Origin: Glycocaulis abyssi
GTDB lineage: Bacteria > Pseudomonadota > Alphaproteobacteria > Caulobacterales > Maricaulaceae
Assembly: GCF_041429775.1 (NCBI RefSeq)
Contig: NZ_CP163421.1
Span: 1,699,001-1,763,000 of the forward strand
DNA: 64,000 nucleotides
Direction: 5' to 3'
The translations under genes were made by a program, and so were the position numbers. A model generated the notes under the pieces. That model was not told the origin of the DNA and searched no databases. It worked only from the letters and a program-made list of their open reading frames with translations. Below, in pieces: positions 14,369 through 62,447 of the stretch. The first letter of the stretch is position 1. Each line of letters opens with the position of its first letter.

Positions 14369-14385
14369 GGTAACACGCCCTCGTG

Positions 14386-14547
14386 CTTCGAGACGCTTTC
14401 TTCGAAAGCCCTCAGCATGAGGGCTTGTGGTGCTTTCCCTCATCCTGAGGGTGAGCGAAGCGAACGTCTCGAAGGATCAGGGAAAAGCCATCTCTCAGGC
14501 ATGGTTGGCCCGGACACCCGCCTGCGCGGGCGCAGGCAAGCCGGGCC
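14386..14547. repeat. Intergenic palindromic repeat elements after glmM
   Basis: The 195-bp gap between convergent glmM and the phosphoesterase holds two compact elements. The first is bounded by a 10-bp inverted repeat (CTTCGAGACG at 14386, its complement at 14465) enclosing two perfect hairpins (8-bp stem at 14407-14425 and 6-bp stem at 14437-14451). The second is a 7-bp stem (14507-14513 with 14541-14547) with an inner 7-bp stem. Similar GC-rich palindromes occur as dispersed repeats in alphaproteobacterial genomes; here they may also serve as bidirectional terminators. Confidence 0.75.
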
Positions 14548-14563
14548 ATGACAGTTATCTTCC

Positions 14564-49040: not shown

Positions 49041-50435
49041 ATGAGCCTCAATTCAGCCCTGGCGGCCGGCGCCTCCGGCCTGATCTCCAACTCCTCCGCC
49101 CTGGCGGGGATTTCGGACAATATCGCCAACGTGAACACGGTCGGCTACAAGCGCGTGAACACGAATTTCTTCCCCAACTACTCGCTGACCTCCGGGGCGG
49201 GCGATGTGCGCTACGCAGCCGGCGGCACCTCGACGCTCTCCAAGCTGGATGTGTCGACCAGCGGGCTTTTGAACCCGGCCAGCTCCTCCACCGCGCTGGC
49301 GATTGACGGCAATGGCTTCTTCGTGGTGCGCCCGAACTCCCAGAACGCGACCGGGTTTGATCCGGTCCTGTTTACACGCTCGGGCAATTTCGAGACGGAC
49401 TCTGCCGGCTTCCTGCGCAATGCGGCGGGCATGTATCTCTATGGCTGGCCGGTGCAGGCCGACGGCACGGTCAATGCCAACCCGTCCAATCTGGACCAGC
49501 TTGAAGCCATCAACCTGTCCAATATCGGCGGCGCGGCCGAAGCGACATCCTCGGTGCGCATCAACGCCAATCTGCAGGCCAGCCAGGAAGTGTCTCCGGC
49601 TGCTGCCACCTATGATCCCACCGACCCGACGCTGAACATGGCGTCCGGCGCCGTGACGGCCGACTTCCAGCGCACCATCCAGATCTATGACAGCCAGGGG
49701 GGGGTGCGCTCGGTTACGCTATCGCTGCTGAAATCGGCCAATGCCAATGAGTGGCATGCCGAGCTGCACATCGACCCGGCGGCCGACATCACCACAGGCG
49801 CTGGCCTGAACTCCGGCCAGATCGCCACCGGTGTGCTTGCCTTCAACACCGATGGGCAGATCGATGTGGGCAACACCACCCTGCCGTCCAGCCTCAACTT
49901 CCTGGGGTCGGACAATGCCGCGCCGCTGGGTGCCAATGACTTCCAGTGGGCGGCGGCGACCGGTATCGGTGCGCAGGCGATCCAGCTGGATCTGGGCGCG
50001 GCCGGCACGCCGGGCGGCATCACCCAGTATGACAGCCCGTCCACGCTCAACTCCACGCGGGTCAATGGTGCGATATTCGGTTCCTTTGCCAGCGTGGACG
50101 TGGACACGCAGGGCTTTGTCTCGGCGCGCTTCACCAATGGCGTGGTGCGCCAGATCTACCAGATCCCGGTGGCTACGGTGGCCAACCCGAACGGGCTGGC
50201 AACGGCTGGCGGGTCGGCTTTCTACGTAACGCCGGAATCGGGCGCGTTCACGCTGAACCTTCCCGGTGCCGGTGCTTCGGGCCAGATCGCTCCCAAGGCG
50301 CTGGAAAACTCCAATGTCGATATCGCGACGGAGTTCTCCAATCTCATCATCACCCAGCGCGCCTATTCGGCATCCTCGCGTATCATCACCACGGCCGATG
50401 AGATGATGGCTGAAGCGATCCAGATGAAGCGGTAG
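49041..50435 (+). CDS. flgE: Flagellar hook protein FlgE
   Basis: Main hook subunit, 464 residues. N-terminal SLNSALAAGASGLISNSSALAGISDNIANVNTVGYKRVNTNFF is the rod/hook signature, the middle contains FVVRPNS and FTRSGNFETDSAGFLRNAAGMYLYGWPV, and the C-terminal NVDIATEFSNLIITQRAYSASSRIITTADEMMAEAIQMKR is the conserved coiled coil. A perfect terminator-like hairpin follows the stop. Hook-length control by FliK and capping by FlgD are encoded just upstream. Confidence 0.95.
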   Translation: MSLNSALAAGASGLISNSSALAGISDNIANVNTVGYKRVNTNFFPNYSLTSGAGDVRYAAGGTSTLSKLDVSTSGLLNPASSSTALAIDGNGFFVVRPNSQNATGFDPVLFTRSGNFETDSAGFLRNAAGMYLYGWPVQADGTVNANPSNLDQLEAINLSNIGGAAEATSSVRINANLQASQEVSPAAATYDPTDPTLNMASGAVTADFQRTIQIYDSQGGVRSVTLSLLKSANANEWHAELHIDPAADITTGAGLNSGQIATGVLAFNTDGQIDVGNTTLPSSLNFLGSDNAAPLGANDFQWAAATGIGAQAIQLDLGAAGTPGGITQYDSPSTLNSTRVNGAIFGSFASVDVDTQGFVSARFTNGVVRQIYQIPVATVANPNGLATAGGSAFYVTPESGAFTLNLPGAGASGQIAPKALENSNVDIATEFSNLIITQRAYSASSRIITTADEMMAEAIQMKR

Positions 50436-50463
50436 AGTTAAGACCACTTCCGGAGGCTGATTA

Positions 50464-50490
50464 TCACCCCGGTGGCTTCCATCGGGGTGA
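50464..50490 (+). terminator. Terminator-like hairpin after flgE
   Basis: TCACCCCG (50464-50471) pairs perfectly with CGGGGTGA (50483-50490), with an inner TGG/CCA extension in the loop. It lies 28 bp after the flgE stop. The following bases ATCATTTCTA are only weakly T-rich, so Rho-independent strength is moderate. Confidence 0.6.
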
Positions 50491-50521
50491 ATCATTTCTA
50501 AACCGCTGATTTGTAGAAAAT

Positions 50522-50548
50522 TTACCAAAGCGTTTAGGCCGTCGTTAA
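50522..50548 (+). promoter_or_regulatory. Two overlapping CtrA-like boxes upstream of sciP
   Basis: TTAC-N7-TTTA (50522-50536) and TTAG-N7-TTAA (50534-50548) lie about 70-100 bp before the sciP start. The second differs from the CtrA consensus TTAA-N7-TTAA by one base. CtrA control of sciP is known in Caulobacter; here the sites are pattern matches only. Confidence 0.45.
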
Positions 50549-50619
50549 AACGTCTCACGTATAACGGTCCCATCAAGAGCGCCATCAAGAGCGCCTTTAT
50601 GGTGGAAGGACCGGGTTGG

Positions 50620-50892
50620 ATGGAACGTCGTATCAAGAAAGAAAACTATGTGATCGGGCCGGATGGCAGCCCGCTCACGGTGGCTGACCTGCCGGCGGCC
50701 AACACCAAGCGCTGGGTCATCCGCCGCAAAGCGGAAGTGGTGGCTGCGGTACGCGGCGGGCTTATCAGCCTGGACGAGGCGTGCGAGCGCTATCGCCTGA
50801 CCGTCGAGGAGTTTCTCGGCTGGCAGCGCGCGATCGAACGTCATGGCCTGGCCGGCCTGCGCACGACCCGCATTCAGGATTACAGGCACTAG
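50620..50892 (+). CDS. sciP: SciP, CtrA inhibitory protein (DUF1153)
   Basis: A 90-residue helix-turn-helix protein. The stretch YVIGPDGSPLTVADLPAANTKRWVIRRKAEVVAAVRGGLISLDEACERYRLTVEEFLGWQRAIERHGLAGLRTTRIQ is the DUF1153/SciP pattern. In Caulobacter SciP binds CtrA and blocks its activation of target promoters early in the cell cycle. The ATG at 50620 has GGAAGGA nine bases upstream; an ATG seven codons earlier lacks one. Its place between flgE and fliF matches Caulobacter and ties flagellum timing to the cell cycle. Confidence 0.93.
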   Translation: MERRIKKENYVIGPDGSPLTVADLPAANTKRWVIRRKAEVVAAVRGGLISLDEACERYRLTVEEFLGWQRAIERHGLAGLRTTRIQDYRH

Positions 50893-50944
50893 ATACCTTA
50901 TCCTCCCCCACATCCGTGGGGTCGGTTCCGCGAAAAGTCGCGGG

Positions 50945-51450
50945 CGCGCGTTCGCGCTTTTCAGGCCGCTTTGCGGCCTGCAAGGCCAAGGGCCGTCCGA
51001 GCCTATGCGAGGAGCGACGCGCGGATGCGCGGAGCATCAATAAAAAACACGCGCGTTCGCGCTTGCGGCGGCCATAGGCCGCCGAAAAGGGCGACTGCCC
51101 GCCCGGCCTCGTGGCCGGAACATTGCAGCCCGGATGGGCTGCGCAGCCAAAGATCACGCGCGTTCGCGCTTTTCAGGCCGCTTTGCGGCCTGCAAGGCCA
51201 AGGGCCGTCCGAGCCTATGCGAGGAGCGACGCGCGGATGCGCGGAGCATCAATAAAAAACACGCGCGTTCGCGCTTGCGGCGGCCATAGGCCGCCGAAAA
51301 GGGCGACTGCCCGCCCGGCCTCGTGGCCGGAACATTGCAGCCCGGATGGGCTGCGCAGCCAAAGATCACGCGCGTTCGCGCTTTTCAGGCCGCTTTGCGG
51401 CCTGCAAGGCCAAGGGCCGTCCGCGCCTATGCGCGGAGCATCAGGAAAAA
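50945..51450. repeat. 212-bp tandem hairpin repeat array, about 2.4 copies
   Basis: Copies start at 50945, 51157 and 51369 and appear nearly identical; the third is cut after about 80 bp. Each unit splits into two sub-modules of 105 and 107 bp that both open with CGCGCGTTCGCGCTT (seen at 50945, 51050, 51157, 51262, 51369). Within copy one, perfect short hairpins stand side by side: 50964-50978, 51019-51030, 51067-51083, 51089-51100, 51103-51118 and 51125-51142, with 4-7 bp stems and 3-4 base loops. Because 212 is not a multiple of three, any translation changes frame from copy to copy, so a repeat protein is unlikely. Confidence 0.9.
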
Positions 51451-51576
51451 GCTGGGTCTCCCGTTCCCCGTTTTCACGGGGACAGGCGGTGCGGGAGACC
51501 CCGGCTGTGTTGGGGTTCCGCAATATTTCCTCGTCATTCCGGCAGCCGCGAAACGCAGAGCCGGAACCCAGCTTTT
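51447..51576. repeat. 130-bp element bounded by 11-bp inverted repeat
   Basis: AAAAGCTGGGT (51447-51457) is perfectly complementary to ACCCAGCTTTT (51566-51576). Inside are a nested hairpin (GTCTCCCG with CGGGAGAC, enclosing CCCCGT/ACGGGG) and a segment, CGTCATTCCGGCAGCC, resembling dispersed repeats of alphaproteobacteria. It directly follows the 212-bp array. It could be a MITE-like or REP-like unit; no transposase or clear target duplication was seen. Confidence 0.6.
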
Positions 51577-51788
51577 ATTAGCTCCGCAACGCAGCCCCGG
51601 CCCGCGCGGCACAGGCCGTCGCGTGCGGGTGTTTGACGCGTTTCACCGGCGCAAGCCGGTGCCCAGCCCTTCTGGACCCCGACTTTCGTCGGGGAAACGC
51701 AAAGGATATTCCCTTCCCCCGTTGAAAGCGCCCTGCTGGCAATAGCGGTGCTTTTCCACAGGCATGGGCTGGGATTTGGTAACTCTCG
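51577..51788. other. Intergenic DNA upstream of fliF, no gene seen
   Basis: About 210 bp between the repeats and the CtrA-like box. Short GC palindromes are present (for example CCGGCGCAAGCCGG near 51647) and the wording is again like dispersed repeat elements. No ORF with ribosome site or family similarity was found on either strand. The fliF promoter should lie toward the right-hand end. Confidence 0.5.
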
Positions 51789-51804
51789 TTAAACACTCGT
51801 TTAC
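51789..51804 (+). promoter_or_regulatory. CtrA-like box upstream of fliF
   Basis: TTAA-N7-TTTAC lies 75 bp before the fliF start. It matches the CtrA consensus TTAA-N7-TTAAC in all but one base. In Caulobacter fliF is a CtrA-dependent class II flagellar operon, so the position and match fit expectation. Confidence 0.6.
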
Positions 51805-51878
51805 GCGGGCAGTGGGAAAAACTTGCCTACCAGTCCGGCAAATCGCCGCGCTGGCCAGAGGGGCAAGGCTTTTCACCC

Positions 51879-53516
51879 GTGAACGCGCTATTTGAACAAC
51901 TGGCAAAGTTTGGCGTTGGGCGCCTGACGGCCATTCTCGGCCTGACCATCGGGGCGGCTGCCGCACTGGTCATCTTCACGATGAGCATGAATGGCTCACG
52001 CGAGGCATTGCTCTATTCGGGCCTGCAGCCGCAGGACGCGGCTGCCGTCAGCGAGCGCCTCGGCCAGGCCAATATCTCCTATACCTTGCGTGAGGGCGGC
52101 ACGGCCGTGTTTGTCGACCGCCAGCGGGTGGACGAGGCGCGCCTGCGCGTGGCGCAGGGCGGCGCGCTCGGCTTTGGCTCGGTCGGCTATGAAATCTTCG
52201 ACGAGACCGACGCGCTGGGAACCACCAGCTTTGTGCAGAACATCAATGCCAAGCGGGCGCTGGAAGGCGAGCTGGCGCGCACCATCAACACGATCGGCGT
52301 GGTCAGCGGCGCACGCGTGCATCTGGTACTGCCCGAACGGCGCCTGTTTTCCCAGCAGGTGCAGGAGCCGTCAGCCTCCGTCATCCTGACCTTGCGCGGC
52401 CAGATCACGCCTGAGCAGATCGCCACCGTTCGCGATCTGGTGGCAACGGCTGTCCCCGGCCTCGGCGCCGGACGCATCACCATTGCCGATGACCGGGGCC
52501 GCCTGCTGGCAAGCCCGTCGGAGGATGGTTCTGTTACCAGCGCCGCTCTGGAGGGACGCCGTTCCAGCCTGGAGTCCGAGCTGCGCGACCGTGTGCGCGA
52601 CGTGGTGGAGGGCATAGTCGGTCCGGGCGCTGCGCGCGTGGTCGTGACCGCTGATCTCAGCCGGGAGAGCGTGACCGAAAGCAGCCAGACCTATGACCCG
52701 GACGGTCAGGTGCGTTCGGGGCGCGAAATCAGCGAGGAATTCACCCGCGAGCCCGCAGGGCGCAATACCGGCGCTGTATCGGTGGCGGAAAACCTGCCTG
52801 AGGCGGGCGGCGGCGAGGAGGCTGCGGCCGGCCCGATGGCCGAAACGGGCCGCAACTCACGGGTGGAGAACTTCCTCAACTCCTCCACTACCCGCACGCG
52901 CGTCGTGGAAGCCGGCGCGATTGAACGCCTGTCGGTCTCTGTCGTTGTCGACGAGGTGATGACGCGCGGCGAGGACGGTTCGCCCGTGTTCACGCCGCGC
53001 AGCGAAGAGGAAATTGCCCGCATCCGCCAGCTGGCCGGTGTCGCAGCCGGGTTTAATGCCGAACGCGGAGACGTGATCGAAGTGGCGCAGCTGCGTTTCT
53101 CGCGCCCCGATCTGGATCTGGGTACGCCCGCCAGCTCCGGCTTCTCGCTCAATCGCGGCGACATATTGCGCATTGCCGAGATCGCCGTGCTGTTCATCAC
53201 CGCCCTGCTGATCGTGTTCATGGTCGCGCGCCCGCTCATCAAGGGGGCGATCAGCGGCCCGGCACCGGCACTGGCTGGCGCAGCTTCGGGCGGTGGCGCG
53301 CATGCCCTGCCCTCCCAGCCGCACCAGGCCGCCATCGCGCATTCGGGCGACGGCCAGCTGGCCCTGCCGGATTCCGGGGAGTCTGAGGAAACCATCGATA
53401 TCGCCCACATTGCCGGTCAGGTGAAAAAATCGTCGGTGAAAAAGGTGTCGACGCTTGTCGAGAAGCACCCCGACGAGTCGATGGCGATCCTGCGCACCTG
53501 GATGCACGAGAGTTAG
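51879..53516 (+). CDS. fliF: Flagellar MS-ring protein FliF
   Basis: Forms the inner-membrane MS ring. The 545-residue protein has N- and C-terminal membrane segments (about 20-38 and 430-450), the YscJ-like domain (GLQPQDAAAVSERLGQANISYTLREGGTAVFVDRQRVDEARLRVA), and a cytosolic tail that binds FliG (ESMAILRTWMHES). GTG start; the weak ribosome site GAGGGGCAAGG is upstream. Head of fliF-fliG-fliH-fliN-flbD, the same order as Caulobacter. Confidence 0.95.
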   Translation: MNALFEQLAKFGVGRLTAILGLTIGAAAALVIFTMSMNGSREALLYSGLQPQDAAAVSERLGQANISYTLREGGTAVFVDRQRVDEARLRVAQGGALGFGSVGYEIFDETDALGTTSFVQNINAKRALEGELARTINTIGVVSGARVHLVLPERRLFSQQVQEPSASVILTLRGQITPEQIATVRDLVATAVPGLGAGRITIADDRGRLLASPSEDGSVTSAALEGRRSSLESELRDRVRDVVEGIVGPGAARVVVTADLSRESVTESSQTYDPDGQVRSGREISEEFTREPAGRNTGAVSVAENLPEAGGGEEAAAGPMAETGRNSRVENFLNSSTTRTRVVEAGAIERLSVSVVVDEVMTRGEDGSPVFTPRSEEEIARIRQLAGVAAGFNAERGDVIEVAQLRFSRPDLDLGTPASSGFSLNRGDILRIAEIAVLFITALLIVFMVARPLIKGAISGPAPALAGAASGGGAHALPSQPHQAAIAHSGDGQLALPDSGESEETIDIAHIAGQVKKSSVKKVSTLVEKHPDESMAILRTWMHES

Positions 53517-57004: not shown

Positions 57005-57019
57005 GACGAAGGTTGATGT

Positions 57020-57128
57020 CCTCCCCCGCCTGCGGGGGAGGTGTCAGCGAAGCTGACGGAGGGGGGAGCTTGTTTCGTGCAATCCCCCCCTCGGCCCTCC
57101 GGGCCACTCCCCCCGTGAACGGGGGGAG
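57020..57128. repeat. Intergenic palindromic repeat between flbD and flhA
   Basis: Hairpins include CCTCCCCCG/CGGGGGAGG (9-bp stem, 57020-57041), GTCAGC/GCTGAC (57043-57057) and CTCCCCCC/GGGGGGAG (57107-57128). The element splits the flbD-flhA run and nearly touches the flhA ribosome site. It looks like the one at 62270-62345. Confidence 0.7.
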
Positions 57129-57157
57129 ACAGGAATGGAAGAAGGACAGAAACTCCC

Positions 57158-61467: not shown

Positions 61468-61517
61468 GGGGGTCACAGGGCGCGACGCGATTCAGCTTAG
61501 TCAAGCACGCTTGGTGA

Positions 61518-61925
61518 CTAGCGCGAAGGAAGCGGACCCTCGCACAAATGATATTCCCCATTGCGCGGCTCTACACGCCAAACAGAATCCACGACACCTC
61601 CAGGCGAATACAGGGCCGTTAGATAAACGTCACAACTTTCTACAATAATCCGGTCAACACACGAGTTGAATGCTGCGAGCTCTTCATTAAGAATTACCGA
61701 AAAGAGCGGTCCGCGTTCGTCAGAAAACTCATAACCACTCTGATTTCGCGCCAAACACCCAATAAAAACATACATTGTTCGCTCATTTAACGAACTGCCT
61801 TCAATCAGGGATCGTTGGCTTTCAACTGAAAGGTGAATGAAATCATCGTCCTCGGAGCAACCGGTGAAGAGAAACAATAAAGTAACGAGCGCTATAACCG
61901 GCGTTTTCACTCCAAATTTATGCAT
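61518..61925 (-). CDS. Predicted lipoprotein, AT-richer than neighbours
   Basis: A 135-residue protein with a lipoprotein signal (MHKFGVKTPVIALVTLLFLFTGC, lipobox LFTGC). The mature region has an acidic patch (EDDD) and five further cysteines. No family recognised. Base composition is clearly lower in GC than the surrounding genes, with many A/T third positions, suggesting recent acquisition. The start at MHKFGVK begins the signal; 27 codons upstream are not used. Confidence 0.65.
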   Translation of the reverse strand: MHKFGVKTPVIALVTLLFLFTGCSEDDDFIHLSVESQRSLIEGSSLNERTMYVFIGCLARNQSGYEFSDERGPLFSVILNEELAAFNSCVDRIIVESCDVYLTALYSPGGVVDSVWRVEPRNGEYHLCEGPLPSR

Positions 61926-62154
61926 GCGCCGCTCTCCCTGCCCGTAATCTCGCCAGCCGCGTTGGGGTGCCTGATACCAATCGGTCGTCAAACTTGTCCC
62001 CTGCATCTTGGGAGAGTGGTTGGGCCATATTCGCCCTCATCTCCCGCCGGTCATCACATTGCCCGGTCAGACACATACTACACCCGTCAGAGACCGGGGT
62101 GGATAAGTTTAAGAATGCCGTGTTTGGGAAAGGTCGGGACGCGGTTGCCCCTCT

Positions 62155-62345
62155 CCGGGTCATGGATCCCGGGTCAAGCCCGGGACCCCTGTGGAGAGGT
62201 CAGTGTTAAACTGGCAAGGCAATGGATACCGGCACCACAATCCGGGGCCCCGGCCCCCGAGCCGGGGTCCACATTCAATTTCGTGCAGGGTCTGACCGTC
62301 CCCCTCGCCCCCTTCGGGGGCACTCCCCCCGTAAACGGGGGGAGA
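62155..62345. repeat. Cluster of GC palindromes
   Basis: Within the 522-bp gap between the lipoprotein and DUF6607 genes are ATCCCGGGTCAAGCCCGGGA-type (near 62165-62190), CCCCGGCCCCCGAGCCGGGG (near 62250) and CTCCCCCC/GGGGGGAG (near 62323-62344) hairpins. Text resembles the flbD-flhA element. No gene in the rest of the gap (61926-62154) was supported. Confidence 0.6.
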
Positions 62346-62380
62346 CACCGGCACCCTGACCACTTCTACCCCCCAAGAAA

Positions 62381-62414
62381 CTGCGGCGCGCGTCAGGGCA
62401 AACGCGCGCCGCAG
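62381..62414 (-). terminator. Terminator downstream of DUF6607 gene
   Basis: A perfect 13-bp stem (CTGCGGCGCGCGT with its complement) has an 8-base loop. On the minus strand it is followed by TTTCTT, giving a standard intrinsic terminator 34 bp after the DUF6607 stop codon. Confidence 0.8.
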
Positions 62415-62447
62415 CATCTAACCGTCCGATGTAAAGGGACAATCCCT

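Follow-up and report, generated by a model that had tools for sequence, protein, structure and literature searches.

The gap between sciP and fliF in Glycocaulis abyssi is crowded with short hairpins, part of them in a tandem array, and this raises the question of whether the array serves the flagellar genes or is one copy of a repeat that occurs elsewhere as well. The window, which is the whole stretch of 64,000 nucleotides that was analyzed, comes from a genome of 3.05 Mb in two contigs. The nearest named relative of its FliF is that of Glycocaulis albus with 93% identity. Genes flanking the array region are a flgE-like gene, sciP, and fliF, and the profile matches on both sides of the array were SciP (NCBIfam CtrAInhibSciP, E = 1.5e-42) and FliF (TIGR00206, E = 8e-61). 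“G” numbers indicate genomes and “L” numbers loci or sequence stretches; L034 is from G. albus, L009 is from G001, and G002 is assumed to be G. albus. The features in and around the gap are as follows.

50599..50892, plus strand: sciP.
50897..51445, plus strand: the whole hairpin array, with a Z-type terminal hairpin, H2, and 2.3 tandem units (matches of covariance model R1 from 50897-51041 to 51329-51445; tandem repeat).
50906..50921, plus strand: H1, terminal hairpin CCCCAC-ATCC-GTGGGG (Z type), outside the tandem unit.
50928..50943, plus strand: H2, CCGCGA-AAAG-TCGCGG, outside the tandem unit.
50945..51156, plus strand: unit 1 of the 212-bp tandem.
50946..50957, plus strand: H3, GCGC-GTTC-GCGC, inside the 15-base start common to both sub-modules.
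50963..50979, plus strand: H4, AGGCCGC-TTT-GCGGCCT, the element center, with the linkers TTTTC and GCAA on either side.
50984..50994, plus strand: H5, GGCC-AAG-GGCC.
50997..51012, plus strand: H6, CCGAGC-CTAT-GCGAGG, with a tandem G/A mismatch.
51018..51047, plus strand: H7 (CGCGC-GGAT-GCGCG) plus the X-type end GAGCATCAATAAAAAA.
51051..51156, minus strand: second, inverted half-element of the unit, with five hairpins at 51051-51142 (R1 minus-strand match 51039-51150).
51157..51368, plus strand: unit 2, identical to unit 1.
51369..51439, plus strand: unit 3, partial, 71 bp, 97%.
51465..51486, minus strand: 22-bp CCTG-tagged hairpin in the loop of the hairpin at 51452-51501 (pattern match 51467-51486).
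51532..51571, plus strand: hairpin repeat CGTCATTCC...GGAACCCAG, resembling the CGTC REP class by eye, as judged from an excerpt of PMC3733652.
51789..51803, plus strand: CtrA-like box TTAAACACTCGTTTA upstream of fliF, outside the array.
51879..53516, plus strand: fliF.

The gap of 986 bp contained 19 non-overlapping hairpins with stems of at least 5 bp, compared to a mean of 3.6 and a maximum of 7 in shuffled sequences. Tandem Repeats Finder indicated a period of 212 bp, 2.3 copies, and 99% matches for positions 50945-51439. Together with the profiles of the flanking genes, this agrees with an earlier note made from the sequence alone, which had described a tandem array of hairpins between sciP and fliF with a 212-bp unit composed of sub-modules of 105 and 107 bp. 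Of the three nearly identical units listed there, two are indeed identical but the third is a fragment, and position 50945 is the start of the tandem but not of the feature, which begins at about 50897 with the two hairpins H1 and H2 (50906-50943) outside the tandem unit. The first 15 bases are the same in both sub-modules, as had been seen. A unit is composed of H3 to H7 of one element followed by the inverted half of another, so that both sub-modules start with H3; this explains the 15 shared bases and would offer a site for unequal recombination. At least six perfect hairpins of 4 to 7 bp had been counted per unit; nine were located, plus one with a tandem mismatch. Unit 3 differs from the full unit at only two positions over its 71 bp. 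Both are within H6, and the two base differences turn the mismatched CCGAGC-CTAT-GCGAGG into the perfect CCGCGC-CTAT-GCGCGG.

The predicted RNA fold of one unit had a z-score of −4.75 on the plus strand, with none of 200 shuffles equally good, and of −3.21 on the minus strand, with 1 of 200 shuffles reaching this level. Open frames run through the repeat, but the period of 212 bp changes the frame, so that a protein-coding array was set aside and the former assignment as non-coding is supported. Three matches were obtained with Rfam 15 for positions 50400-52000 at E values up to 1, the best with 19.5 bits compared to gathering scores of 40 and 74, and a known structured RNA was rejected, no match being near the threshold. 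The array is also no CRISPR, as the whole 212-bp unit is repeated and no unique spacers are present.

The plan of the element was derived from ten copies, each of them parsed into 29 blocks. It is about 150 bp long and consists of seven short hairpins in the mirror order H1-H2-H3-H4-H3'-H2'-H1', with shared loops and linkers. The 5' part contains H1 with the loop ATCC, H2, a two-base spacer, H3, and the linker TTTTC (or TTGC or TCTTC); the center is H4 with a loop of mostly 3 nt, followed by the linker GCAA (or GAAAA or GCGA); and the 3' part is formed by the inverted counterparts H5, H6, and H7, the last one with a loop that is mostly GGAT. Three types of ends, “X,” “Y,” and “Z,” exist, usually with T-rich DNA before and A-rich DNA after them.

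For the covariance model R1, nine elements and the structure from the parse of one element were used, albeit with a MAFFT alignment of the nine (A1) that had put several stems wrongly. Running R1 over 45 sources gave 109 matches on both strands, which were reduced to 58 distinct sequences. In the best 30 of these 58 elements, 1,067 of 1,159 pair cells (92%) were Watson-Crick pairs, a figure biased towards the structure because the alignment was fitted to it, compared to a mean of 72% and a maximum of 74.5% in 500 shuffles of the 3' letters. With H6 excluded, 18 of 20 stem alleles seen at least twice were perfectly complementary; among the 28 singleton alleles, 7 were perfectly complementary, 17 were not, and 4 could not be scored. 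Stems change between copies in complementary pairs, and the structure is kept while the sequence is not. Since 27 of 30 seven-hairpin haplotypes were distinct and all four combinations were present in 12 of 21 hairpin pairs, the elements are mosaics. Among the 40 best elements, every one of the 17 inserts with a length of 10 nt or more was located in a loop, a count that was set aside, several of them being truncated elements forced into the model.

Searching the window genome with the unit resulted in 41 BLAST matches, and R1 found 81 matches on both strands; with only the better strand counted, these are 47, spread over 40 places. BLAST matches occurred in 6 of 61 genomes, which were all six of the genus, and in none of the 55 genomes outside; among 80 fliF loci, only L034, L035, L036, and L038 were matched. 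R1 matched 14 of 41 genomes, with 32 to 72 both-strand matches in each of the six from the genus and weak matches in 8 of 35 others. The weak matches outside the genus in G012, G019, G051, and G009, with 37.5 bits at best, may stem from a distantly related element or simply from DNA rich in hairpins.

The gene context was evaluated with a crude gene caller and for gaps no shorter than 100 bp. Convergent genes surrounded 18 of 37 element-bearing gaps, compared to 4 of 30 element-free gaps (p = 0.002), and divergent genes 4 of 37 compared to 14 of 30 (p = 0.001), the 30 baseline gaps being neighbors of elements plus those of the window and not a random genome sample. At several places, an element began 2 to 8 bp past a called stop codon. 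The family is a dispersed repeat of the genus Glycocaulis, with an excess between convergent genes and a deficit between divergent ones, and at the RNA level this placement behind genes would fit tolerance or a generic protective role. Read by eye, an element or remnant also starts a few bases behind the 3' end of a tRNA gene in L179 (about 2065-2090) and L116 (about 1500-1590).

The array in the sciP-fliF gap is thus probably a local amplification of an extragenic mosaic repeat that is dispersed through the genome and specific to the genus. For both the mosaic and the tandem, we favor an origin by ectopic recombination and by slippage among palindromes. The H3 modules of 15 bp that open both sub-modules may have recombined unequally to give the 212-bp tandem. 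Copies may trade modules through gene conversion or ectopic recombination, and an element could collapse to one hairpin if its equal stem arms recombine.

Orthologous sites allow a view on the turnover of the family. By reading, a single hairpin, TGTCCTCCCCCACATCCGTGGGGGAGGACA, is located behind sciP in G. albus, a compound element of two parts with outer ends of the Z type in G001, and other, shorter versions of the element in L035, L036, and L038; no recognizable element was read behind sciP in L037 (Marinicauda salina) and L039 (Oceanicaulis HTCC2633). The locus L038, with the title Oceanicaulis sp. HLUCCA04 and a FliF identity of 88%, was counted with the Glycocaulis type. The number of hairpins in the gap was 19 in the window, 14 in G001, 4 in G. 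albus, 3 in L035, 7 in L036, and 3 in L038; it was 3, 2, and 3 in the outgroups L037, L039, and L042, with L040 and L041 left out as unmeasurable. A copy number varying between strains had been considered possible, and the number of hairpins differs between species at this site. Only the window, G001, and L036 were above the shuffled maximum; the counts of 4, 3, and 3 in G. albus, L035, and L038 did not exceed the maximum of 4, so that the element in these three is based on reading the sequence.

At two more sites, the window genome has only a single hairpin where G001 has a full element or a double one (L207/L182, L020/L179). For 18 of the 40 places, the flank matched an element-bearing stretch from G001. 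Eighteen of the remaining 22 places were followed: an R1 match was present in 5 of these 18 in G001 and at the site in 7 of the 18 in G002, one G002 stretch (L266) being only 800 bases long. R1 also matched two more G002 stretches below 20 bits, off-site in at least one case (L274). This occupancy indicates that the presence of the element differs between species. In ten orthologous pairs, the identity of the element compared to that of its flanks was mixed, higher in some and lower in others, mainly due to indels. At L175, positions 2068-2188 differed from L270 (G002) at 5 positions in the 121-bp element, with flanks of 100% (354 bp) and 99.8% (500 bp) identity, which indicates that this copy changed faster than its surroundings.

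A selected 3'-end device, meaning rows of hairpins kept for transcript stability or to block read-through between convergent genes, is a possible but rather doubtful reading. It would account for the convergent placement, for the positions just after called stops and just behind the tRNA genes of L116 and L179, and for the compensatory changes in the stems. On the other hand, many sites are vacant in relatives, as the occupancy in G001 and G002 indicates, and no T-run follows the array hairpins on the sciP strand. Hairpins with a T-run on the transcribed strand were not found in the array, all four terminator-like sites of which are on the minus strand, and intrinsic terminators were rejected for this reason; the 5 such sites in the scanned region were not striking, compared to 2.4 (standard deviation 1.8) in shuffled sequences. 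If the amplified mosaic repeat has an effect at the RNA level, it would most likely be that of any strong 3' structure, such as shielding of mRNA ends or damping of read-through, which is tolerated and not specific for sciP or fliF.

The comparison with known repeats leads to the BIMEs of enterobacteria and Stenotrophomonas, which are tied to RAYT genes in the excerpt of PMC2817692. Forty places, 27 different haplotypes among 30, and a 212-bp tandem correspond to an extragenic dispersed mosaic of palindromic units and linkers with tandem forms. In line with the BIMEs as this excerpt presents them, the elements are extragenic palindromic mosaics in two orientations, with linker motifs, tandem variants, and complementary changes that keep the palindrome. 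They differ from that description by seven different hairpins in mirror order, by the lack of a detected Y1 gene in the genus, and by hairpins nested in loops. The array and its family represent an unusually complex BIME-like mosaic repeat, with the loop-nested insert as the interesting part.

That they are REPINs or BIMEs proper, mobilized now or formerly by a RAYT (Y1) transposase that was perhaps lost since, is improbable despite the inverted hairpin mosaics with tandem variants that BIMEs also have (excerpt of PMC2817692). The RAYT (Y1/IS200) profile PF01797 had no match in the six genomes of the genus, with the positive control matching in 5 of 14 named genomes, and a RAYT-driven REPIN was rejected on this basis; moreover, the GTAG tag was absent from the ten parsed elements. 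The CGTC REPs of Alphaproteobacteria seem to have no dedicated transposase according to the excerpt of PMC3733652. Similar to the GTAG and CGTC REPs characterized there, the Glycocaulis repeats are short stem-loops mostly 3' of genes, between convergent or co-directional open reading frames, and the X-type end often contains CGTC. In most copies, this word straddles the junction between stem and linker. In contrast to the REPs of that excerpt, however, its CG is paired, the word is lost with AGCCC/GGGCT stems (3 of 30 elements), the other end types and linkers contain neither GTAG nor CGTC, and the 22-bp unit with a CCTG flank sits in loops. A MITE would have terminal inverted repeats and a target-site duplication; most parsed elements have a T-rich start, an A-rich end, and inverted terminal hairpins, and no clean target-site duplication was seen at L174, the clearest empty site.

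A regulatory region specific for the flagellar genes or CtrA, which the earlier note had considered, is very improbable and largely refuted. In its favor are the location and the presence of an element or remnant after sciP in all six Glycocaulis-type loci (window, G001, L034, L035, L036, and L038; by reading). The sequence TTAA-N7-TTTA, which we take to be a CtrA-like box, precedes fliF by 82 to 96 bp at 14 of 15 loci, including the array-free L037 and L039, and is absent from L050; in the window, it is more than 340 bp past the array. The promoter box is therefore conserved without the array, and the content of the sciP-fliF site varies between the species compared. Many copies throughout the genome without a link to flagellar genes had been named beforehand as the outcome that would make the array a generic repeat, and the 47 matches at 40 places are this outcome. 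A flagellar regulator was rejected on the genome-wide count, the gene contexts with their depletion between divergent genes, and the promoter comparison. An assembly artifact in copy number is even less credible: two perfect 212-bp copies are hard for short reads, but G001, which consists of one contig, carries an independent compound array at this position, and the same modules recur elsewhere in the genome.

Other hairpin families are located in the vicinity. Within the window, such families occupy the intergenic gaps at 51532-51571, 51638-51700, 57005-57157, and 61468-62447. The repeat at 14369-14563 belongs to another family (GGCCCGG...CCGGGCC), contains a CCTG-type unit in a loop at 14517-14536, and adjoins a long CCCTCATCCTGAGGG...GTCTCGAAGG inverted repeat. 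In relatives, the orthologous gap is in several cases occupied by a different hairpin family.

An extra hairpin within a loop was found in several elements, and most of these inserts are of the form CCTGYSCCCG...CGGG. Just past the array, the hairpin at 51452-51501 is a CTGGGTCTCCCG hairpin repeat with a loop of 44 nt, compared to 22 nt in L034 and L009, and the exact 22-bp insert at 51465-51486 is absent at the orthologous locus from G. albus (L034) and G001 (L009). The element at L116 (3752-3922) and its G001 orthologue were identical in 148 of 171 alignment columns; they differ by one mismatch and by 22 bases of the H2 loop that are missing from G001, and G003 also lacks this insert. In the same kind of loop (H2), G002 is without the 22 bp at L172; at L133, the 22 bp are in a GGAT loop of G002 and missing from the window genome; at L127, one loop insert is common to the window genome and G001 and another one differs; and at L118, the insert is in G001 only, in H1. 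Filled and empty orthologous loci differ by the CCTG unit with base precision.

The CCTG pattern had 41 occurrences in the window genome and the reversed control had 7; the window itself has two of the pattern, with 0.10 expected. An excess over the control was present in five of the six genomes of the genus (41/7, 35/5, 32/2, 21/8, and 13/1) and not in G004 (20 compared to 21). Among the 55 genomes outside the genus, many were at the level of the control, and the clearest excesses were those of G012 (13/3), G014 (12/3), and G019 (18/7). The unit was enclosed by an outer stem of 6 bp or more in 23 of 35 distinct contexts, compared to a mean of 4.6 and a maximum of 11 in 200 flank swaps. By reading, 32 of the 35 contexts are loops of five kinds of hairpins, some of them with mismatches in the outer stem: 13 units are in H2/H6 and 4 in H1/H7 of the element, and three further repeat families account for 8, 5, and 2. 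The remaining 3 had no assignment. Deletion of 22 or 24 bp from unit-bearing copies reproduced unit-free hairpins of relatives, letter-exact over 24 nt, for 19 locus entries; lengths of 20 to 25 and three offsets were allowed, some entries are one place twice, and the hairpin of the relative is not necessarily orthologous.

Hosts in four repeat families suggest separate entries of the unit, and a single case may be a fresh insertion or a gene-conversion copy of a filled host. As a tentative explanation, to which we give somewhat less than an even chance, the 22-bp CCTG hairpin may be a miniature mobile element with the apical loop of other hairpins, and not a sequence, as its target, having entered five kinds of hairpins in four families by a non-Y1 activity on single-stranded DNA; it would land in the loop presumably when the host hairpin is extruded. 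The nearest description of such nesting is that of the Volvox organelles in the excerpt of PMC2670323, where a short palindrome inserted into another one leads to larger composites with loops of 3 to 5 nt. Unlike the Glycocaulis elements, those repeats are eukaryotic and organellar, AT-rich in mitochondrial DNA, and no seven-hairpin order is described in that excerpt. The hairpin elements of sponge mitochondria are likewise intergenic repeats, with GC-rich stems in some taxa; in the part of PMC2800124 concerned with them, stems are conserved and loops vary, whereas in Glycocaulis stems are swapped and loops and linkers recur. Palindromic repeats also serve at a fixed point as insertion targets for IS elements that target REPs, but the inserts treated in the excerpt of PMC1525189 are IS elements and not a 22-bp hairpin. 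A search of the open PMC literature, with subscription papers outside its scope, yielded no account of this family, nor of bacterial 22-bp hairpins that target loops.

For the biology of these bacteria, the data are a caution that tandem hairpin arrays beside regulatory genes need not be regulatory. With several hairpin families in one genus, no match for Y1, sites that are empty or filled with base precision, and loops as the location of a 22-bp unit, the question of loop-targeted insertion becomes testable, and targets, insert, and host strains are all defined in the case of Glycocaulis.
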